Shown: piece by piece, positions 40,741-51,211 of the stretch
Layout of the letters: each line of letters opens with the position of its first letter
Position numbering within the stretch: position 1 is the first letter of the stretch
NCBI GenBank assembly: GCA_016789175.1
Contig: JAEURK010000064.1
Location: 1-51,291, forward strand
Origin: Anaerolineales bacterium
GTDB lineage: Bacteria; Chloroflexota; Anaerolineae; Anaerolineales; UBA6663
Direction: 5' to 3'
DNA length: 51,291 nucleotides
Position numbers and translations under genes: made by a program
Notes under the pieces: model-generated
What the model saw: only the letters and a program-made list of their open reading frames with translations
Database searches by the model: none
What the model was told of the DNA's origin: nothing

Positions 40741-42075
40741 ATGTCGCATCGTATCGGCTTCATCTCCACGCGGTTTGCCGGCACGGATGGGGTCTCGCTC
40801 GAGACCGCTAAGTGGGCCACGGTGCTCGAAAGACTCGGCCATACCTGCTTCTACTTCTCGGGCCAGAGCGATCGGCCCGAGACGATCAGCCGGGTCGTGC
40901 CGGAAGCTTTCTATCGACACCCCGCGGTCGACGCGATCAACAGCGTCGCCTACGCCGGGACCTGGGGCACACCTGAACAGACCCGGGCCTCGCGGCCGGA
41001 TCTGGTCGGGCTGCATCGCGATTTCTTCTCGATCTATATCCGCCCGCCCCACGTCTCCCGGCAGGTCCAGGAACTGAAGGATTACCTCAAGAAGGAGCTC
41101 TACGGCTTCGTGCGGTCCTTCGAAGTCGAGCTGCTGATCATCGAGAACGCCAGCACGATCCCGCTCAACCTGCCCCTCGGTCTGGCGCTGACCGAATTCA
41201 TCGCTGAGACCGGCTTCCCCACGATCGCGCACCATCACGACTTCCACTGGGAACGGCAGCGCTTCGCCGTCAACTGCGTCGGCGATTACATCGCCACGGC
41301 CTTCCCACCGGTGCTGCCCTCGATCCGGCATGTGGTCATCAACACCGTGCAGGCGCAACAGCTGGCTTCGCGCCACGGCGTGTACTCACGCGTGATCCCG
41401 AACGTCATGGATTTCGACACGCCGCCGCCGCCGCCGGATGCCTACTGCGCGACGGTGCGACAGGATCTGGGCATACAGGACGGTGAGTACCTGGTGCTCC
41501 AGCCGACGCGCATCATCCAGCGCAAGGGCATCGAGCACGCGATCGAGCTCGTGCGCCGGTTGGGGTTCAAGGCCAGGCTGGTGATCTCACATGCCGCCGG
41601 CGACGAGGGCACGGCCTACGAAAAGCGCGTGCATGAGTTCGCTGAGTTGCTGGGCGTACCGATCAGCTTCGAGGCCGACCAGGTCGGCGACACGCGCGCC
41701 ACGACGCCCGATGGCCGCAAGATCTACACCCTGGGCGATGTGTACCCGCACGCCGACCTGGTGACCTACCCGTCGACGATCGAGGGCTTCGGCAACGCTT
41801 TCCTCGAGGCCGTTTACTATCGGCGGCCCCTGGTCGTCAACAACTATTCGATCTACGAGGTCGACATCAAGCCCAAGGGCTTCCGGGTGGTCGAGTTCGA
41901 CGGCTTCATCAGTGACTCCACACTGAGCGCCGTGCGCCAGGTGCTGCTCGATCGCGACCTGGCCGCGGCCTGGGCCGAAGAGAACTACGCCCTCGCCAAG
42001 CGCTATTTTTCGTATAGCATGCTCGAGCTGCGTCTGCATGCCCTGCTGGCCGACTGCTTCGGGTATGGGGGCTGA
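40741..42075 (+). CDS. GT4-family glycosyltransferase (possible mannosylglucosylglycerate-type)
   Basis: A 444-aa GT-B retaining glycosyltransferase. The N-terminal Rossmann half opens with IGFISTRFAGTDGVSLE, with GTDGVS as the glycine-rich loop, and includes AHHHDFHWERQR. The nucleotide-sugar half shows PTRIIQRKGIEHAIELVRR and the E-x7-E motif in IEGFGNAFLEA (about 348-358). There is no membrane helix. The opening is reminiscent of enzymes that add mannose to glucosylglycerate, but this is memory of a family style, not a proven match. It lies 18 bases before a second GT4 gene, with GpgS downstream, which makes a compatible-solute role plausible. No Shine-Dalgarno is visible. Confidence 0.8.
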   Translation: MSHRIGFISTRFAGTDGVSLETAKWATVLERLGHTCFYFSGQSDRPETISRVVPEAFYRHPAVDAINSVAYAGTWGTPEQTRASRPDLVGLHRDFFSIYIRPPHVSRQVQELKDYLKKELYGFVRSFEVELLIIENASTIPLNLPLGLALTEFIAETGFPTIAHHHDFHWERQRFAVNCVGDYIATAFPPVLPSIRHVVINTVQAQQLASRHGVYSRVIPNVMDFDTPPPPPDAYCATVRQDLGIQDGEYLVLQPTRIIQRKGIEHAIELVRRLGFKARLVISHAAGDEGTAYEKRVHEFAELLGVPISFEADQVGDTRATTPDGRKIYTLGDVYPHADLVTYPSTIEGFGNAFLEAVYYRRPLVVNNYSIYEVDIKPKGFRVVEFDGFISDSTLSAVRQVLLDRDLAAAWAEENYALAKRYFSYSMLELRLHALLADCFGYGG

Positions 42076-42093: not shown

Positions 42094-43314
42094 ATGGCCA
42101 CCATTGCCTTGATCCATCACTCGGCTCCGCCGATCGTCGGCGGGGTTGAGAGCGTGCTCGGCCATCACGCCCGTCTGATGGCGGACGCCGGCCATGACGT
42201 GCGCATCATCGCCGCCCGCGGCGACGCCATCGACGCTCGGGTTGCGTTCGAGCGAGTCCCGCTGGTCGACTCTCGCCACGCCGAGGTCGATATGGTCAAC
42301 GCCGAACTCGCGGCCGGCCACGTCACTCCGCGTTTCAAACAGCTGGTCGACAAGCTCAGCCTCGATCTGGCCGCCGCCCTGCACGATGCCCAGATCGTCA
42401 TCGCCCACAACGTTTGCTCGCTCAACAAGAACCTGGCGCTAACCACGGCGCTGCACAAACGGCATGCCGGCCCGGCCCGGCATCAACGCCTGATCCTCTG
42501 GCACCATGATCTGGCCTGGGTAATGCCGCGCTACCGTGCGCAACTGCACGCCGGCCCCCCCTGGGAACTCCTGCGCACGGCCTGGCCCGGGGCGATGCAG
42601 GTCGTCGTCTCCGAGTTGCGACGAGTGGAATGGTCCAAATTGAGCGGGCAGGATCCGGCGACCATTCATGTCGTGCCGAACGGCGTCGATTACGCGACGT
42701 TTATGAAGATCGAGCCGTTCATGAAGACCTGGCTGGCGGAGTCCCGGCTGCTCGACGCGTGGCCGATCCTGCTCCTGCCGGTGCGGATCACGCCTCGCAA
42801 AAACATCGAGTTAGCGTTACGGATGCTGGCGGCCCTGCGCCAGGAGATGCCGCGCGCGACCCTCGTGGTCACGGGCCCTTTGGGTGCCCACAGCGCCGAA
42901 AACGAACTATACTTTAATGAGTTGCGCGCGTTGCGAACCGAGTTGGGGCTGGGAAAGGCGGCGATCTTCATGGCCGAACAGAGCCGGCACATGTTGCCGG
43001 ACGCCGTGATCGCCGATTTCTTCCATCTGGCCGATGCCCTGTTCCTGCCGAGCCGCGAAGAAGGTTTCGGCATCCCGGTGCTCGAAGCAGCTTTCAGCCG
43101 TCTGCCGGTGTTCTGCACCGACATCCCCCCGCTGCGCGGCCTGGGCCTCGACGAGGCCACATATTTCTCGCCCGAGGCGGACCCCGTCGTCCTGGCCCGG
43201 CAGGTGGCTGTTGTGCTTCGCTCGGCCCCAACCGCGCGTCTGGCAGCCCGTGCACGCGCAGCCTACACCTGGCAGCAGGTGTACGATCGCGACATCGCCC
43301 CCCTGATCGACTGA
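42094..43314 (+). CDS. GT4-family glycosyltransferase
   Basis: A 406-aa GT-B glycosyltransferase. The glycine-rich loop near the N-terminus is PPIVGGVESVLGHHARLM. The sugar-nucleotide half holds LPVRITPRKNIELALRML and the E-x7-E motif in EEGFGIPVLEAAFSRLPVF, then TDIPPLRGLG. It is soluble or peripherally membrane-bound. It follows the first GT4 gene after 18 bases and precedes the Usp-GpgS gene by about 100 bases, so it probably belongs to the same biosynthetic unit. The donor and acceptor are not readable from sequence. Confidence 0.82.
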   Translation: MATIALIHHSAPPIVGGVESVLGHHARLMADAGHDVRIIAARGDAIDARVAFERVPLVDSRHAEVDMVNAELAAGHVTPRFKQLVDKLSLDLAAALHDAQIVIAHNVCSLNKNLALTTALHKRHAGPARHQRLILWHHDLAWVMPRYRAQLHAGPPWELLRTAWPGAMQVVVSELRRVEWSKLSGQDPATIHVVPNGVDYATFMKIEPFMKTWLAESRLLDAWPILLLPVRITPRKNIELALRMLAALRQEMPRATLVVTGPLGAHSAENELYFNELRALRTELGLGKAAIFMAEQSRHMLPDAVIADFFHLADALFLPSREEGFGIPVLEAAFSRLPVFCTDIPPLRGLGLDEATYFSPEADPVVLARQVAVVLRSAPTARLAARARAAYTWQQVYDRDIAPLID

Positions 43315-43415: not shown

Positions 43416-45257
43416 ATGACCACCCGACGTCTTTTCCCTTCGCTACGCCGGGCGCTCGTGCCCGTCGTTCACGGCTTCGGCGGTCTGCGCGCGATCGAGG
43501 CGGCGCGCGCCGTCGCCACCGAAGTCGTGCTGGTCGGCATCGTGCATCTCGCCGGCGATCAGCCGCTCAGCGCGGGCGCAGCGCTGGCCCGCCAGGTCCG
43601 CGCGCGGCTCAAGGAGCTCGACCTGGCCGAAGGCGTGCGCGCCCGCGGCCGGGTCCTGGTCGCGCACGCGCCGTGGGACGATCTACGGCGTGTGGTCGAG
43701 TCGGAGGACCCCGACCTCATGATCCTCGACATCGACGGCCATCTGGAGGCGCTCGGGATCACGGCGGCCGACGTGCTCGCCGGCGCGCCGTGCGACGTCG
43801 CGCTGGTGCGGGGCGACGTCCCGCGCCGCCCGGCTCATGCGCTCGTCCCGGTCCGCGGCGGCCCGCATGCCGAGCTTGCGCTGCGGATCGGCCTGGATCT
43901 GCGCCCCCAGCACCTCACGGCCGTCCACCTGCGCGCCCCGGGCGAGAGCGGCACCAGCGCGGCCTTCCGCGGGCTTGAGCGCGTGTTAGCACGCCTGCCC
44001 GATGTCAGCAAGCGGAGCGCCGTGACCGAACGACCGGCCGACACGATCCTGAGCGAGGCGGCCGAGGTCGGCGGTGACCTGATCATCATGGGCGCCGCGG
44101 CCCGCCCCAGCTTCGATCATGCCTCATTCGGCGCTATCGCCGACCGAGTGCTGGCCGAGGCAGATTGCCCGGTCATCGTCGTCAAGACGCGGCGGCCGAT
44201 GACCGAAGCCGCTCCTGATGAAAGCGCCGGGGCCGGCGCCATCTCGATCCTGGTCGATAAGTGGTTTGCCGAGAACACGTATCACACCGACGAATTCGCG
44301 GATCTCGAGCGGCTGGTGGCGCTCAAGCACCAGCAAGGCCTGACGATCAGCCTGGCGTTGCCGGCTCTGAACGAGGAAGAGACGGTCGGCACCGTCATCG
44401 GCACCATCCAGCGCGAGCTGATGCAACGGGTGCCGTTGATCGACGAGATGGTGTTGATCGACTCGAACTCGAACGACCGCACCCGCGAGATCGCAAGCGA
44501 GTTCGGCGTGCCCGTCTACATCCACCAGGAGATCCTGCCCAGGCTGGGAGCCCGGAAGGGCAAGGGCGAGGCGCTGTGGAAGAGCCTGCTGGTAACGCGC
44601 GGCGACATTGTGGCCTGGATCGACACCGACATCGTCAACATCGATCCGCGCTTCGTCTACGGAATCATCGGACCGCTGCTGCTCAATCCCAAAGTGCAAC
44701 TGGTCAAGGGCTTTTACCAGCGCCCGCTCCGGGTAGGCGACAAGACCCAGGCCGGCGGCGGCGGACGGGTGACCGAACTGACCGCCCGGCCGTTGCTCAA
44801 CCTGTTCTATCCCGAGCTCTCGGGCATCATCCAGCCGCTCTCGGGCGAGTACGCCGGGCGCCGCACAGCCCTCGAACAGATCCCGTTCTTCAGCGGCTAC
44901 GGCGTCGAGATCGGGATGGTGATCGACATCTTCGATCGCTTTGGGATCGAGGGCATCGCCCAGGTCGACCTGCTCGAGCGCGTCCACCACAACCAGGAGC
45001 TGGACGCCCTCAGCAAGATGTCGTTCGCAATCTTGCAGGCCGTGTTCCGCAAACTCGAGGGCAATGACCAGCGCGCCTTCGTCGCCGATGTAAACAAGAC
45101 CATGAAGCTGATCCGCCAGGAAGCCGGCAGCTACTACCTCGACGTCGAGGAAATCGCCGAGCGCGAGCGGCCCGCAATGGTGACGGTGCCGGAATACACG
45201 GCCAGCCGGGCTGAGACGGCCCAGCCGGACGTGGTTGTGGAAGGTCGCGCGAGCTGA
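43416..45257 (+). CDS. gpgS: Universal stress protein - glucosyl-3-phosphoglycerate synthase fusion
   Basis: A 613-aa cytoplasmic fusion. Residues about 8-135 and 137-262 are two Usp-like alpha/beta domains; the second shows DLIIMGAAARPSFDHASFGAIADRV and ends CPVIVVKTRRP. After a linker, residues about 285-575 are a GT81 domain very close to GpgS. It shows LPALNEEETVGTVI, GKGEALWKSLLVTRGD, the metal-binding DTD in WIDTDIVNIDP, VKGFYQRPLRVGD, GGGRVTELTARPLL, LSGEYAGRR and GYGVEIG. GpgS joins glucose from an NDP-glucose to 3-phosphoglycerate, the first step to glucosylglycerate-type solutes. Known GpgS enzymes are about 300-340 aa without Usp domains, so the fusion could add nucleotide or stress control. 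No GpgP/MggB phosphatase is seen. Confidence 0.88.
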   Translation: MTTRRLFPSLRRALVPVVHGFGGLRAIEAARAVATEVVLVGIVHLAGDQPLSAGAALARQVRARLKELDLAEGVRARGRVLVAHAPWDDLRRVVESEDPDLMILDIDGHLEALGITAADVLAGAPCDVALVRGDVPRRPAHALVPVRGGPHAELALRIGLDLRPQHLTAVHLRAPGESGTSAAFRGLERVLARLPDVSKRSAVTERPADTILSEAAEVGGDLIIMGAAARPSFDHASFGAIADRVLAEADCPVIVVKTRRPMTEAAPDESAGAGAISILVDKWFAENTYHTDEFADLERLVALKHQQGLTISLALPALNEEETVGTVIGTIQRELMQRVPLIDEMVLIDSNSNDRTREIASEFGVPVYIHQEILPRLGARKGKGEALWKSLLVTRGDIVAWIDTDIVNIDPRFVYGIIGPLLLNPKVQLVKGFYQRPLRVGDKTQAGGGGRVTELTARPLLNLFYPELSGIIQPLSGEYAGRRTALEQIPFFSGYGVEIGMVIDIFDRFGIEGIAQVDLLERVHHNQELDALSKMSFAILQAVFRKLEGNDQRAFVADVNKTMKLIRQEAGSYYLDVEEIAERERPAMVTVPEYTASRAETAQPDVVVEGRAS

Positions 45258-45258
45258 C

Positions 45259-46179
45259 ATGCCGCTTCATATCGAGACGCCGTTGCTCCTTTCCCGACCG
45301 CTGAGTTTGATCGCGGAGCGGTCGGTCTGGTTGAAGCTCGACGCGCTCCAGCCCGCCGGCTCGTTCAAAATCCGCGGCATTGGCCATGCCTGCGAGACGT
45401 ACCGGCGGCGCGGCGCGCAACGCTTCATCTCATCGTCGGGTGGCAACGCCGGATTGGCCGTGGCTTACGCCGGGCGCACGCTGGGCCTGCCGGTGACCGT
45501 GGTCGTCCCTGAGACGACGTCGGAGACGGCGATCAAGCTTCTGCGCCAGGAAAACGCCGAAGTGATCGTGCACGGGGCCAGCTGGCAGGAAGCCAACGTG
45601 CTGGCGCAATCCTTGATCCGGGCTGCGGATGCCTTCATCCATCCGTTCGACGATGCGTTGGTCTGGCAGGGGCATGCCACGCTCATCGAGGAGGTCGCGC
45701 GTACCGGCCTCAAGCCGGACGCGATCGTGTTATCCGTGGGCGGCGGCGGCTTGCTGGCCGGGGTGAGCGAAGGTCTGGAGCGCCACGATTGGGGGCAGGT
45801 GCCGATCGTGGCCGTCGAGACCGCCGGCGCGGCCTCGTTTCGGGCGGCGCTCGCGGCCGGGCAGCCGGTCTCGCTGGAGCAGATCACCAGCATCGCCGCT
45901 ACCCTGGGCGCCAAACGGGTCTGCGATCAGGCTGTGGCCTGGGCGAAGCGGCGCCCGATCGAAAGCCTGGTGGTGACCGATCAGGACGCGCTGACGGCCT
46001 GCGAGCGATTCCTCGACGACCACCGTGTGCTGGTCGAGCCCGCCTGTGGCGCAAGCCTGGCGGTGGTGTATGAACGCGCCCCCGGGTTGGAGCGATTCGA
46101 TACGATCCTGGTGGTCGTTTGCGGCGGGGCCACCGCCAGCCTCGACCAAATCCGGCGCTGGCGCGCCGCGATGCTTTAG
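45259..46179 (+). CDS. PLP-dependent serine/threonine dehydratase family
   Basis: A 306-aa fold-type II PLP enzyme. The Schiff-base lysine lies in PAGSFKIRG (about 35-43). SSSGGNAG (about 64-71) holds the cofactor carboxylate side, and the phosphate loop is VGGGGLLAG (about 162-170). The length and order match L-serine or L-threonine ammonia-lyases. The start at 45259 lies one base after the GpgS stop, so the genes are coupled. It would turn serine into pyruvate and ammonia; serine could come from the glycine and methylene-THF made by the nearby demethylation enzymes, though that link is inference. It lacks the C-terminal ACT domain of biosynthetic IlvA. Confidence 0.85.
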   Translation: MPLHIETPLLLSRPLSLIAERSVWLKLDALQPAGSFKIRGIGHACETYRRRGAQRFISSSGGNAGLAVAYAGRTLGLPVTVVVPETTSETAIKLLRQENAEVIVHGASWQEANVLAQSLIRAADAFIHPFDDALVWQGHATLIEEVARTGLKPDAIVLSVGGGGLLAGVSEGLERHDWGQVPIVAVETAGAASFRAALAAGQPVSLEQITSIAATLGAKRVCDQAVAWAKRRPIESLVVTDQDALTACERFLDDHRVLVEPACGASLAVVYERAPGLERFDTILVVVCGGATASLDQIRRWRAAML

Positions 46180-46199: not shown

Positions 46200-46895
46200 T
46201 CACGCATCCGCCAAAAAACGATAGCCGACCCCCGGCTCGGTCACCAGAAACTGCGGACGCTCCGGCTCCGGCTCGAGTTTCTTGCGCAGTTGCCGCATGA
46301 AGACCCGCAGATACTCGACGTGGTTGGCTTCCGGCTCGCCCCAGACATGCGTCAAGATGCTCTGGTGCGTGAGGACGCGCCCGACGTTGGCGGCCATATA
46401 GGCCAGCAGCTTGAATTCAGTCGCCGTCAGCTTGACGAGCTCGCCATCGCGCGTGACAGCGTGGTTGACCAGGTCGATCATCAGGGCGCCGGCGCGGACC
46501 GCGGTCGCCTTCTCGGTCCGGGTTTGGGCCGCGTGACGCAGAGCCACCCGCACGCGCGCCAACAACTCCTCGATCCCAAACGGTTTGGTCAGGTAATCGT
46601 CGGCGCCGTGATCGAGCGCCGCGACCTTGTCCATCTCGCCGTCGCGCACCGACAACACGATGATCGGGATCTGCGTCCACTCGCGCAGACGCGCGCACAC
46701 CTGGGTGCCGTCGAGATCAGGCAGGCCCAGATCGAGGATGACGATGTCGGGCGGGTTGGCCGCCGCCAGCGCCAGCCCCTCTTCGCCCCGGCTGGCCGTC
46801 GTCACACGAAAGTGCTTCTCGGTCAGGATCGTGCGCAGGGCCCGCAGGATCTGCGGCTCGTCATCGATCACAAGGATATGCGGCGCGGTCTTCAT
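46200..46895 (-). CDS. kdpE: OmpR/KdpE-type response regulator
   Basis: A 231-aa response regulator. The receiver domain has the acidic pair DDE (11-13), phospho-acceptor D55 (ILDLGLPD), a Ser in the VLSVRD position and the LTKPFG lysine. The winged-helix output domain (about 130-228) shows LVKLTATEFKLLAYMAANVGRVL, the HVWG turn and LRVFMRQLRKKLE, ending GVGYRF. The style is KdpE-like. Its start overlaps the sensor kinase stop by four bases. No kdpFABC operon is present, so the target may be the divergent potassium-transporter genes. Confidence 0.87.
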   Translation of the reverse strand: MKTAPHILVIDDEPQILRALRTILTEKHFRVTTASRGEEGLALAAANPPDIVILDLGLPDLDGTQVCARLREWTQIPIIVLSVRDGEMDKVAALDHGADDYLTKPFGIEELLARVRVALRHAAQTRTEKATAVRAGALMIDLVNHAVTRDGELVKLTATEFKLLAYMAANVGRVLTHQSILTHVWGEPEANHVEYLRVFMRQLRKKLEPEPERPQFLVTEPGVGYRFLADA

Positions 46896-48340
46896 CCGAC
46901 CTCCAGGTCGCTGGGCAGGCGCGGCGGCGCCTGGCCGTCTTGGGTCGTCGGCAGGGTGAAGTGGAACGCAAACCCGCCCGGCACGTTTTCGGCCCAGATC
47001 CGGCCGCTATGCGCCTCGACAATGCCTTTGCAGATCGACAGGCCCAGCCCGGTGCCCGTGACCCGGTCACCGGCGTTGACGCGGTAGAACTTATCGAAGA
47101 TCCGCTCGAGATGCTCGGCCGGCACCGGCGGCCCCTGATTGACCACCGTGACCTCCACAGATCCGGGCTCACGCTCGGTCGCCGTGATCTTGATCGTGCT
47201 GTTTGGCGGCGCATACTTCAGGCTGTTGCTCAACAGATTGGTCAGGACCTGCTCGATCTGCACGTAGTCGACCGACACGAAGGGCAGATCATCGGGCACA
47301 TCCACGGCGAGATGGTGTTGCTTGCTGACGCGCGCCATGCGTGCCAACACGCCGTCCACGATCTCGGCCAACAGATTCCACTGGCGCTGCGGTTTGAGCG
47401 CACCGGCCTCGATCCGCGACATATCGAGCAGATTGCCGACCAGACGGTTGAGATGTTGGGCTTCGTCGTCGATCGCGGCCACCAGGTCTTCGCCGGCGGT
47501 TGTGCCCCACCCCACCTCACCCGCGCGCAGGCTGGTCGCGGCGGCCCGGATGGTCGCCAGCGGGGTGCGCAGTTCGTGCGACACCGATGACAACAGGGCC
47601 GTTTTGAACTGATCGCTGGCCTCCAGCACCTGGGCGCGCTGTTCGGACTGGGCCAACGCCGCTCGCTCAAGCGCCAGGGCGCATTGACTGGCAAAGGCGC
47701 GCGCCAACCGCTCCTCGGCCAACGAGAGCGGCGGATGATCGAGCCACAATCGGATCTCACCCAGGCGCCCGCGCGCCGTGGAGAGACCGATCACCGCGTC
47801 CACCGGACCGCGTTCATAGGGCGCATCGCGCTCAGAGCCGCTCAACGACACCAGCGCGGCGCGCGCATTGAACACGCTTTGGGCCCGAGCTTCGATCACG
47901 GACGTGATCGCATCCTGGTTTTGCAGTCCGGCCAGAGCCACGCTGAGCTCGTACAGGTGCGTGGCCTCGCGCTCGCGGGCCTGGGCTTGAGCCAGGCTGG
48001 CGCGGGCACGGCCGACCAGCTGGCTGATCACCACCGCGACGACCGAGAACACCAGTAGCGCCAGCAAATCCTGAACGCGATGGACCGACAACGAGAAATA
48101 GGGGGCGATGAAGAAGTAGTTGAAGCCCAGGAAGGCACAGAATGACGCGGCGATCCCGGCTCCGAGACCCCAGATCCAGGTCGTCAGGACGATCGGGAGC
48201 AGGTAGAGCAACGCCACGATCGGCGCGCCCAGGAAGTCGCGGAGCGGTTGCATCACGGCCGTGGCCAATGCGATCACAACCACCGTGAGCGCATACTGGG
48301 CCGTTCCCGTGGCCACGGCCCGGATCCGTGGGACAGTCAT
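46892..48340 (-). CDS. kdpD: KdpD-like sensor histidine kinase lacking the N-terminal sensor domain
   Basis: A 482-aa membrane sensor kinase. Four helices (about 15-33, 40-58, 60-78, 90-110) correspond to the DUF4118 membrane part of KdpD. A GAF domain (about 130-230) is followed by HisKA with H255 in SSVSHELRTPL and HATPase_c with NLLSNSLKYAP, FDKFYR and GTGLGLSICKGI. Classical KdpD (about 900 aa) has an extra cytoplasmic KdpD-type ATP-binding and Usp domain at the N-terminus, absent here. GAGAGGAA precedes the start. It is coupled to the response regulator by a four-base overlap and faces the Usp-like membrane protein gene across a 201-base divergent region. Confidence 0.87.
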   Translation of the reverse strand: MTVPRIRAVATGTAQYALTVVVIALATAVMQPLRDFLGAPIVALLYLLPIVLTTWIWGLGAGIAASFCAFLGFNYFFIAPYFSLSVHRVQDLLALLVFSVVAVVISQLVGRARASLAQAQAREREATHLYELSVALAGLQNQDAITSVIEARAQSVFNARAALVSLSGSERDAPYERGPVDAVIGLSTARGRLGEIRLWLDHPPLSLAEERLARAFASQCALALERAALAQSEQRAQVLEASDQFKTALLSSVSHELRTPLATIRAAATSLRAGEVGWGTTAGEDLVAAIDDEAQHLNRLVGNLLDMSRIEAGALKPQRQWNLLAEIVDGVLARMARVSKQHHLAVDVPDDLPFVSVDYVQIEQVLTNLLSNSLKYAPPNSTIKITATEREPGSVEVTVVNQGPPVPAEHLERIFDKFYRVNAGDRVTGTGLGLSICKGIVEAHSGRIWAENVPGGFAFHFTLPTTQDGQAPPRLPSDLEVG

Positions 48341-48363
48341 CGGTTCCTCTCCATCTCGCCCGC

Positions 48364-48369
48364 ATTATA
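48364..48369 (-). promoter_or_regulatory. Consensus -10 (TATAAT) before the sensor kinase
   Basis: On the minus strand TATAAT lies 23 bases before the ATG at 48340, giving a leader of about 17 bases that contains the ribosome binding site. No good -35 is present, which fits an activator-dependent promoter. Confidence 0.6.
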
Positions 48370-48541
48370 GCGTCGCCGCTCGCCCCTTCTCCTCTTGGGG
48401 GGGACCGTCCGGACCATCTTCGGCTCTTTATTTTTCCCTTATGGGGTTGGGCGGAATCTTTGTCACGGCTTTATTCCGGCCTCCTAGAGTCACCTTTGGG
48501 CGCATTGTTCGTTTTCGTGCGCCGGGAAGATCGACCACCCT

Positions 48542-49231
48542 ATGACCGCACGCGCACCAGCGATCACCCTGCCCGCCTCACCGACCTTAACGGATGTCGA
48601 CCCTGTTCGGCCGTCAACCCCCGTCCCGGTTGTTGCGGCAACAAAGCGCGAGGAGCCGCCCTCTGGGCGGCTGGTCGTACTCGTGCCGTGGCTGGATCGA
48701 AACCTGGCAGAGTTTGCCGCCCAGATCCAGGCTCTGGCGGCCCCGCGCGAGCTGCCGGTCCTGCTGGTGGCGCAAAGCGACACGGCCCGTGACCTCTGGG
48801 CGACGCGCCGCAGCCTGACCACCCTGGCCGCCCTGATCGCCGCGCCGCACCGGATCCAGGTCGACCTGCATGTCAGCCCGACTCGCGAATGGCTCAAGAT
48901 CCTGCCTCATGTGATCACGGCCGGCGACGTCGTAGTCTGCGCTCAAGGCCAGGCCGACCCAGGCCGCTGGTTGCGACGCCCGAGGCCTTTGGCAGAGGTG
49001 ATCCGAGATCGTTTCCAGGTGCCGGTGTGCGTGCTGACCGAGTTGTCGGTCGAAGCGCCCGCGCAACTCCAGAGCCTGGCCACGCGCGTACGAGCCTGGG
49101 TCGTGCCGATCGCGGTCATCATCCTTTTCGGTTTTCTGCAGGTACAGATTGAGGTTGGCACCGAGGGTTGGGTCACAACAGCCCTGCTGTGCGGAACCGC
49201 CATCATCGAGATCATCATCCTTGCGCTGTAG
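48542..49231 (+). CDS. Usp-like domain membrane protein (unknown)
   Basis: A 229-aa protein I cannot assign to a named family. Residues 1-42 are Pro/Thr-rich. About 43-168 alternate strands and helices in a Usp-like pattern (LVVLVPWLDRNLAEF, ITAGDVVVCAQG, FQVPVCVLTEL). Two hydrophobic helices end the protein (about 186-202 and 211-228). The Usp-like half is therefore tethered to the membrane by its C-terminus. It lies divergent from the KdpD-like kinase, which lacks its own Usp domain, and 60 bases before the KimA-like gene. An accessory or sensory subunit for potassium control is a reasonable inference. No strong ribosome binding site is visible. Confidence 0.7.
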   Translation: MTARAPAITLPASPTLTDVDPVRPSTPVPVVAATKREEPPSGRLVVLVPWLDRNLAEFAAQIQALAAPRELPVLLVAQSDTARDLWATRRSLTTLAALIAAPHRIQVDLHVSPTREWLKILPHVITAGDVVVCAQGQADPGRWLRRPRPLAEVIRDRFQVPVCVLTELSVEAPAQLQSLATRVRAWVVPIAVIILFGFLQVQIEVGTEGWVTTALLCGTAIIEIIILAL

Positions 49232-49291
49232 GGGTGTCGACCCCGCACGTTCGCTCTGACGATCGATTTGGGAGGCTTGAACACATCCTTT

Positions 49292-51211
49292 ATGAGCACA
49301 ACCATCATTCGCGGGCCGGAGGCCGGTCCGCAACGCAGCTGGCGCCATTGGCTGACCGGACGGCCGCTCTCCACAGCCGAGGCCCCGCACCAAACGATCA
49401 GCAAGAAGGTCGGCCTGGCAGTCTTCGCCTCCGATGCGCTGTCATCGACGGCGTACGCCACCGACGAGATCTTGCTGGTGCTGGCCGGCGCCGGCGCGGC
49501 CGCTTACGCGTTTTCGTTACCGATTGCCATCGCCATCATCATCTTGCTGGTGATCGTGACCGTCTCGTACGAACAGACGATCCACGCCTACCCGGGCGGC
49601 GGCGGCGCCTACATCGTCGCGCGTGACAACCTGGGCGAAAGCCCGGCGCAGGTCGCCGGGGCAGCGCTGCTGACCGACTACATCCTGACGGTGGCGGTAT
49701 CGATCTCCTCCGGCGTGGCCCAGATCACGTCGGCGTTTCCGGCCCTGCTGGAGTACCGGGTCGAGATCGCGCTGGGCTTTATCGCCTTCATGACGCTGAT
49801 CAACCTGCGCGGCGTCAAGGAATCGGGCCTCGCGTTTGCCGTGCCGACTTACTTCTTTCTGGCGGCGACCCTGCTGACGATCGGCGTCGGCTACTACCAG
49901 TTCTTTACGGGCACGCTGGGCAGCGTCACCGGCGTCGAGCCGATGCACGAGGCCTTGCAGGGCCTGAGCGCCTTCCTGATCCTGCGCGCGTTTTCGAGCG
50001 GCTGCACGGCCCTGACCGGGGTCGAGGCGATCAGCAACGGAATCACGGCCTTCAAGGAACCGCGCTCGCGCAACGCCGGCATCACCCTGATCTGGATGAC
50101 CGCGATCCTGTCGACGATGTTCTTCAGCATCACCTTCCTGGCGCAGCAGGCCGGCGCAGTTGCCTCGCATGAACAGACCGTGTTCTCACAGATCGGCGCC
50201 GTGATCTACGGCGCCGGCAGCCTGCCCTACCTGGCCCTGCTCGGGAGCACGACCCTGATCCTGGTGATGGCAGCCAACACGGCTTACGCCGACTTCCCCC
50301 GTCTGGCCGCGCTGGCCGCCGGCGACGGCTTCCTGCCCAAGCAGCTGACCTACCGGGGCAGCCGCCTGGTGTTCTCGTACGGGATCATCGTCCTCGCGGC
50401 CGTGGCGGCGCTGCTGGTGATGGTGTTTCAGGCCCAGACCTCGGCCCTGATCCCGCTTTACGCGATCGGCGTCTTCCTGTCGTTCACGCTGTCGCAAGGC
50501 GGCATGGCGATCCGCTGGTGGCGTTCGCGCACCCTCAAGCCCGGTGAGACCGTGCAGGGCATCGGCTCGGTGTTGCACCACGAACCAAAGTGGAAGCTGA
50601 AGATGGCGATCAACGGCTTCGGCTCGGTGATGTCGTTCGTGGTGATGATCATCTTCGCCGTCACGAAGTTCGAGTCCGGAGCCTGGATCATCGTCATCCT
50701 TATCCCGTCGTTGGTGTTCGTGTTCTTCCAGATTCACAACCATTACCGTGCCCTGGCCAAGAAACTCTCGCTCGACACGTTTGGCGCCCCGGCCCGCGTC
50801 CGTCGCAACCGGGTGGTGCTGCCGATCGGCGGCGTGCACCGCGGCACGCTGCACGCGCTCAACTACGCCCGTTCGCTCTCCGACGACGTCACAGCCGTGC
50901 ACGTCGCGCTCGATGAGGGCGAAGAGGCCAAGCTGCGCGCCAAATGGGAGACCTGGGGCGACGGCGTGCGGCTGGTGCTGATCCCCTCGCCGTATCGCGC
51001 GTTGATCGAGCCCATGATCCAGTACATCCGCGAGGTTGCCGCACAGCGTCAGATCGGCGATATGTTGACCGTGGTTGTGCCCGAGTTCCTGCCTGAGAAG
51101 CCCTGGCAGAACATCCTGCACATGCAGACCGTGTTCTTCCTGCGTTTGGGCCTGCTCGGTCTCCGCAACATCGTGATCATCGAGGTGCCCTATCACGGCG
51201 ACGCCGCCTGA
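49292..51211 (+). CDS. kimA: KimA-type H+/K+ symporter (APC/KUP superfamily)
   Basis: A 639-aa inner-membrane transporter with about twelve helices and a cytoplasmic Usp-like C-terminal domain from about 495 (NRVVLPIGGVHRGTLHALNYARSL). Residues I recall as K+ ligands of Bacillus subtilis KimA (D36, Y43, D117, Y118, T121, T230, Y377) have counterparts at D48, Y55, D129, Y130, T133, T242 and Y390, with spacing conserved to within one residue. ATG 49292 is chosen as start. GGGAGG lies 16 bases upstream, which is far, so an in-frame TTG such as 49268 or 49277 remains possible. It probably works with the preceding Usp-like protein and may be regulated by the KdpDE-like pair. Confidence 0.87.
   Translation: MSTTIIRGPEAGPQRSWRHWLTGRPLSTAEAPHQTISKKVGLAVFASDALSSTAYATDEILLVLAGAGAAAYAFSLPIAIAIIILLVIVTVSYEQTIHAYPGGGGAYIVARDNLGESPAQVAGAALLTDYILTVAVSISSGVAQITSAFPALLEYRVEIALGFIAFMTLINLRGVKESGLAFAVPTYFFLAATLLTIGVGYYQFFTGTLGSVTGVEPMHEALQGLSAFLILRAFSSGCTALTGVEAISNGITAFKEPRSRNAGITLIWMTAILSTMFFSITFLAQQAGAVASHEQTVFSQIGAVIYGAGSLPYLALLGSTTLILVMAANTAYADFPRLAALAAGDGFLPKQLTYRGSRLVFSYGIIVLAAVAALLVMVFQAQTSALIPLYAIGVFLSFTLSQGGMAIRWWRSRTLKPGETVQGIGSVLHHEPKWKLKMAINGFGSVMSFVVMIIFAVTKFESGAWIIVILIPSLVFVFFQIHNHYRALAKKLSLDTFGAPARVRRNRVVLPIGGVHRGTLHALNYARSLSDDVTAVHVALDEGEEAKLRAKWETWGDGVRLVLIPSPYRALIEPMIQYIREVAAQRQIGDMLTVVVPEFLPEKPWQNILHMQTVFFLRLGLLGLRNIVIIEVPYHGDAA

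Follow-up and report, generated by a model that had tools for sequence, protein, structure and literature searches.

Two Usp domains fused to glucosyl-3-phosphoglycerate synthase across Chloroflexota

What does a pair of Usp domains do at the front of a sugar-synthesising enzyme? The role of Usp domains joined to other proteins is largely an open question, and it is raised by a gene in the window, the whole stretch of 51,291 nucleotides from an Anaerolineales bacterium that was analysed here. In this gene a tandem Usp module is covalently attached to glucosyl-3-phosphoglycerate synthase (GpgS), a soluble enzyme with solved structural relatives, an assayable reaction and a conserved operon, so that the consequences of adding a ligand, truncating the protein or changing single residues are open to direct measurement. 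The reading favoured here, with a probability of roughly 0.55, is that of a working GpgS whose N-terminal Usp tandem serves as a cis-acting regulatory or oligomerisation module, tuning entry into glucosylglycerate synthesis. The fusion also connects the control of a protective-sugar pathway with regulatory domains of the Usp-like kind found on transporters.

One frame, two Usp folds and a GT81 domain

A single uninterrupted reading frame runs from ATG to stop and comprises the following parts.

43416 to 45257, plus strand: fused Usp-Usp-GT81 glucosyl-3-phosphoglycerate synthase, 613 aa (ORF, Pfam, NCBIfam, about 80 relatives)
43443 to 43811, plus strand: Usp domain 1, residues ~10-132, with a shortened ATP-loop region that lacks the glycine motif (Pfam, alignment, AlphaFold2)
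43836 to 44186, plus strand: Usp domain 2, residues 141-257 (Pfam, AlphaFold2, Foldseek)
44202 to 44255, plus strand: linker joining the Usp tandem to the GT domain, residues 263-280
44256 to 45065, plus strand: GT81 GpgS catalytic domain, residues 281-550 (NCBIfam, structure matches, alignment)

The Pfam Usp family (PF00582) matches in two stretches, with an E-value of 1.9e-20 for residues 1-278 and 74.3 bits against a gathering cut-off of 24 bits; this score and the Usp fold place the N-terminal half in the Usp superfamily. The C-terminal part is a GT2-type domain by Pfam, and scores 389.8 bits over residues 280-592 with the NCBIfam GpgS equivalog NF010496, above its curated cut-off of 262 bits. 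An earlier note on this DNA had described two Usp-like domains before a complete GT81 GpgS in one unbroken frame, which Pfam, NCBIfam and the 613-aa ORF uphold, and its estimate of about 260 Usp-like residues is correct (262, plus a linker of about 18). Structure prediction of the N-terminal half, on which that description had been staked beforehand, bears it out: residues 1-262 alone give an AlphaFold2 model with a pLDDT of 93.1 and a pTM of 0.91, containing two complete beta-alpha Usp folds (residues ~12-132 and ~141-257). Its best PDB matches by Foldseek are the tandem Usps 3loq_A from A. fulgidus (E 1.8e-10), UspE, Rv2623 and TTHA0350; next come KCC/NKCC transporters, whose C-terminal domains share fold similarity with the Usp half. 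Its sequence profile matches Rv2623, 3LOQ, MJ0577 and TeaD. The tandem Usps 3LOQ, UspE, Rv2623 (3CIS/2JAX) and TTHA0350 (3AB7/3AB8), which head both the fold and the profile matches for residues 1-262, likewise carry two Usp folds per chain, but are stand-alone proteins.

The full-length model, built with 64 aligned relatives, has a pLDDT of 80.5 and a pTM of 0.61, values at which the individual domains appear good and their relative placement uncertain. The whole-chain model matches GpgS/MpgS structures with E-values down to 4e-28, with tandem Usps lower in the list. Antisense to the GT81 part lies a 378-aa open frame (44124 to 45260, minus strand), for which high G+C codon use is the likeliest explanation.

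The fusion is a phylum-wide trait

Far from being the oddity of one gene, as the earlier note had presented it, the Usp-Usp-GT81 fusion is a phylum-wide architecture in Chloroflexota. A scan with one genome per species returned 240 contigs with relatives, of which 80 were kept; these show 53-64% identity, with one at 90%, and span the whole protein wherever the contig is complete. Within Anaerolineae, 80 of 298 genomes have a match, and nearly all matches cover both parts in one frame; the exceptions are one weak Usp-only match on a transporter and a few matches cut by contig ends. A broader sample of 400 Chloroflexota genomes yielded 116 GpgS matches over the cut-off, none of them an ordinary frame of ~300 aa and all far longer. 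Usp is in frame in each of the 30 best of these matches, as well as in three outlying low-scoring copies. Candidates for an unfused GpgS in the phylum did not hold up: two (G488:C993 and G279:C7) reach the end of their contig, a third (G607) is a distant 251-aa glycosyltransferase, and the lower-scoring matches in G553, G537 and G466 are also fused. Matches on large plasmid records comprise only unfused actinobacterial enzymes, which align from residue 280 onward (an annotated one from Tsukamurella has 302 aa), and weak proteobacterial glycosyltransferases, with no fusion among them. It is this recurrence of Usp and GpgS in one frame across the surveyed genomes that makes the fusion a trait of the phylum.

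Could the join nevertheless be meaningless, produced by misassembly, by a frame open through chance or by a passenger domain in decay? All that speaks for such a reading is the quicker evolution of the Usp half relative to the GT half, and the conservation data refute it, leaving it a negligible probability. Nearly 80 independent contigs with the same protein rule out a chance frame or assembly join, and more than 100 genomes share the architecture. Pairwise dN/dS is well under 1, at 0.05-0.22 in the Usp part and 0.02-0.08 in the GT part; the Usp half is thus under purifying selection and maintained, with a constraint weaker than that on the GT part. Mean top-residue frequency ranks the two in the same order, 0.54-0.61 for Usp versus 0.84 for GT.

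The fusion is therefore real and conserved, and apparently undescribed. No relevant paper turned up when Usp was paired with GpgS or GT81, or Chloroflexi and Anaerolineae with GpgS or glucosylglycerate, in searches of literature free of subscription, a scope that keeps the undescribed status provisional. Domain databases would reveal the Usp and GT81 architecture to whoever looked.

Several individual copies deserve mention. One relative belongs to a cultured organism, Flexilinea flocculi (L062). Contigs titled Deltaproteobacteria (L009) and Acidobacteria (L051) hold fused genes no more distant from that of the window than the Anaerolineae sequences, and the genomes behind them are probably misbinned or mislabelled. 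Genome G553 holds, beside a typical copy, a second and strongly diverged Usp-Usp-GT81 copy (L120:837-2747), a case in which the fused architecture is duplicated and diversified. Genome G488 has a normal-length copy and also a GT81 paralogue (L123:1995-2921, on contig G488:C993) in which the DXD is replaced (WLDPSI) and the GKG motif is lost; it is probably an inactive homologue, and a contig end cuts its frame.

The catalytic half is predicted to be active

Among solved structures, sequence comparison places Rubrobacter MpgS/GpgS and mycobacterial GpgS closest to the GT81 half. The structure paper on M. tuberculosis GpgS names Glu54, Ser81, Lys114, Asp134/Asp136, Thr187, Leu209, Tyr229, Glu232 and His258 (PMC2581804). 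Alignment with 3E25, its chain in native numbering, maps E54, S81, K114, D134 and D136 to E320, S350, K383, D403 and D405 here, and T187, L209, Y229, E232 and H258 to T453, L475, Y495, E498 and H524; all are invariant or near-invariant among 64 relatives. The metal motif is the following feature.

44622 to 44630, plus strand: D403-T404-D405, the DXD metal motif, equivalent to D134-S135-D136 in M. tuberculosis GpgS (alignment)

The GT-A fold is present together with the DXD, the K-E-D ion-pair network, the metal His, the acceptor V-T and PLSGE, a motif set that is likewise invariant or near-invariant in the 64 relatives. With the named residues and motifs kept, the GT81 half is predicted to be an active glucosyl-3-phosphoglycerate synthase.

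Mycobacterial GpgS (3E25/4DDZ from M. tuberculosis, 7P5L from M. hassiacum) is the closer model: a GT81 enzyme of GT-A fold with about 44% identity, it shares all the named donor, metal and acceptor residues, as well as PALNEE and, in M. tuberculosis, PLSGE. Unlike the protein described here, it and other actinobacterial GpgS enzymes are ~300-330 aa long and have no Usp domains. The Rubrobacter xylanophilus MpgS/GpgS (3F1Y, 3O3P) has the GT81 fold and gives the best single structure match (E 4e-28), but also lacks a Usp part, and reads PSRNVAD, IDAD and PLAGE where this enzyme reads PALNEEE, IDTD and PLSGE. While PALNEEE and PLSGE side with the mycobacterial glucosyl enzyme rather than with Rubrobacter MpgS, the sequence may still encode mannosyl donor specificity of the Rubrobacter kind.

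A conserved neighbourhood of glycosyltransferases

Two glycosyltransferase genes lie immediately upstream.

40741 to 42075, plus strand: GT4 family glycosyltransferase GT4a, resembling mannosylglucosylglycerate synthase (NCBIfam, neighbourhood)
42094 to 43314, plus strand: GT4 family glycosyltransferase GT4b, the immediate upstream partner (Pfam, NCBIfam, neighbourhood of relatives)

GT4b lies directly upstream in 65 of the 71 relatives that allow the comparison; in most of these the two genes overlap, often by 4 bp, or lie within 100 bp of each other. GT4a is upstream of the fused gene in 50 of 63. The likeness of GT4a to the mannosylglucosylglycerate synthase MggS (NF041101) spans residues 117-430 but reaches only 209 bits, far under the family cut-off of 640, so GT4a falls outside that equivalog. 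Upstream of the GT4 pair, 39 of 51 relatives have a GH13 sucrose-phosphorylase-like protein; 27 of 75 have a histidine-phosphatase-family protein downstream, and 9 of 78 an MGH1-like hydrolase in the neighbourhood. Within GH13, the sucrose-phosphorylase subfamily includes the glucosylglycerate phosphorylases, and the GpgP of mycobacteria is of the histidine-phosphatase type; against this background the neighbourhood fits the synthesis, extension and turnover of glucosylglycerate. Of these neighbours, the window has just GT4a and GT4b next to the fused gene, and the best phosphatase and phosphorylase-like matches of its own genome lie elsewhere and are weak.

Downstream is a PLP-dependent, threonine-dehydratase-like enzyme (45235 to 46179). 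Its start is probably the ATG at 45259, just past the GpgS stop, and it may therefore be co-transcribed. As an operon partner it was rejected, being present in that position in none of 75 relatives checked.

A putative ligand pocket without the ATP motif

Usp-type ATP binding was sought as the motif G-2x-G-9x-G(S/T) in the beta4/alpha4 loop, and neither Usp domain of the 613-aa protein has it. In Usp1 the loop is shortened where the motif is expected, and in Usp2 it reads GAAARPSFDHASFGA instead. Two features of Usp2 stand out.

43854 to 43862, plus strand: R147-G148-G149, an invariant triplet of the Usp2 beta1/alpha1 loop, which in Usps usually contributes to the ligand pocket
44091 to 44132, plus strand: beta4/alpha4 loop of Usp2, residues 226-239, reading 'GAAARPSFDHASFG' and not G-2x-G-9x-G(S/T); G226 is invariant and G239 near-invariant

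The invariant Usp positions in a diverse set of relatives are R62, R147, G148, G149 and G226, and all but R62 sit in the two loops that form the Usp ligand pocket.

The earlier note had proposed that these domains bind ATP, AMP or c-di-AMP in the manner of other Usps, and that energy or second-messenger state thereby gates solute synthesis. Profile matches to the ATP-binding Usps MJ0577, TeaD and Rv2623 speak for this, as does a near-canonical Usp1 loop kept in some distant fused members, such as GWKGFTTTPDRSYGT. There is precedent too in the C-terminal domain of human KCC1, where lysines of the beta1/alpha1 region mediate the binding of ATP/ADP (PMC8280820), and the invariant R147 could play a similar ATP-contacting part. 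Yet a regular-expression search of 118 relatives' frames finds the canonical motif in two, both distant members, and in none of the 31 members of the window's clade; a looser GWxG...FG loop in Usp1 occurs in 7 of 17 deep-group members and again in 0 of 31 in the window's clade; and the Asp after strand beta-1 is present in none of the 48 GpgS-borne tandems checked. Two of the tandem Usps differ here from the fused GpgS with its missing motif: Rv2623 has retained the glycine loop, and for TTHA0350 there is a structure with ATP. Canonical Usp-type ATP sensing in the fused enzyme is thus unlikely. Energy gating was the weaker part of the earlier proposal; a regulatory role is plausible.

Could the Usp tandem be purely structural? 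It might act as an oligomerisation scaffold, or as a dock for both GT4 enzymes of the operon that allows substrate hand-over, sensing no small molecule. The loss of the ATP motif, the dimer-like unit that a Usp pair naturally makes and the adjacency of GT4b in its 65 relatives are all consistent with such a role, and the conserved Usp glycines may be purely structural. It is a doubtful explanation, since the invariant residues cluster in the loops of the putative Usp2 pocket and unfused actinobacterial enzymes do without such a scaffold. These pocket-loop residues, with the KCC1 beta1/alpha1 precedent (PMC8280820), make a Usp2 pocket for some anionic ligand possible.

The favoured reading, a working GpgS with a cis-acting Usp module, could then operate as follows. 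The GT81 half would convert UDP-glucose and 3-phosphoglycerate to glucosyl-3-phosphoglycerate, and the two Usp halves would pair intramolecularly. The pair would either shape the oligomeric state or offer the Usp2 pocket, made of the RGG loop and the glycine loop, to an anionic metabolite or a partner protein. In either case the module would tune entry into the synthesis of glucosylglycerate and higher glycosides under stress. Regulation in cis by the Usp module is plausible.

A module shared with transporters

Usp-like folds on osmo-related transporters have precedents in TeaD and the KCC1 C-terminal domain (PMC8280820). The nearest relatives found for the Usp half are themselves C-terminal domains of transporters: a homologous tandem is carried by APC-type amino-acid permeases in Anaerolineae, some with an added DUF389. 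Unlike in GpgS, the module in these permeases, as in KCC/NKCC, occupies the C-terminus of a membrane transporter. The presence of the same kind of module on permeases gives the Usp tandem the appearance of a portable regulatory part. A quick, unrooted tree built from 63 tandems separates those borne by GpgS from the rest at a branch supported at 99.7, a result compatible with, though not proof of, a single fusion event early in Chloroflexota. A more specific version of the favoured reading can be tentatively drawn: a transporter-type Usp tandem moved once onto GT81 early in Chloroflexota, giving an allosteric GpgS in which the RGG pocket of Usp2 would bind a non-ATP anionic ligand and switch entry into glucosylglycerate and higher-glycoside synthesis.

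Two Anaerolineae loci (L125:852-4073 and L158:165-3332) each encode a protein of more than 1000 aa that combines an APC permease, a tandem Usp and DUF389. The window has an APC-type permease of its own (49268 to 51211), whose C-terminus looks Usp-like and stays under Pfam detection. It ends a stretch (46200 to 51211) that also contains a KdpE/KdpD-like response regulator and histidine kinase pair and a 229-aa protein (48542 to 49231) that has membrane segments at its C-terminus and is matched by no Pfam family, and the same gene order is found in a close relative (L007).
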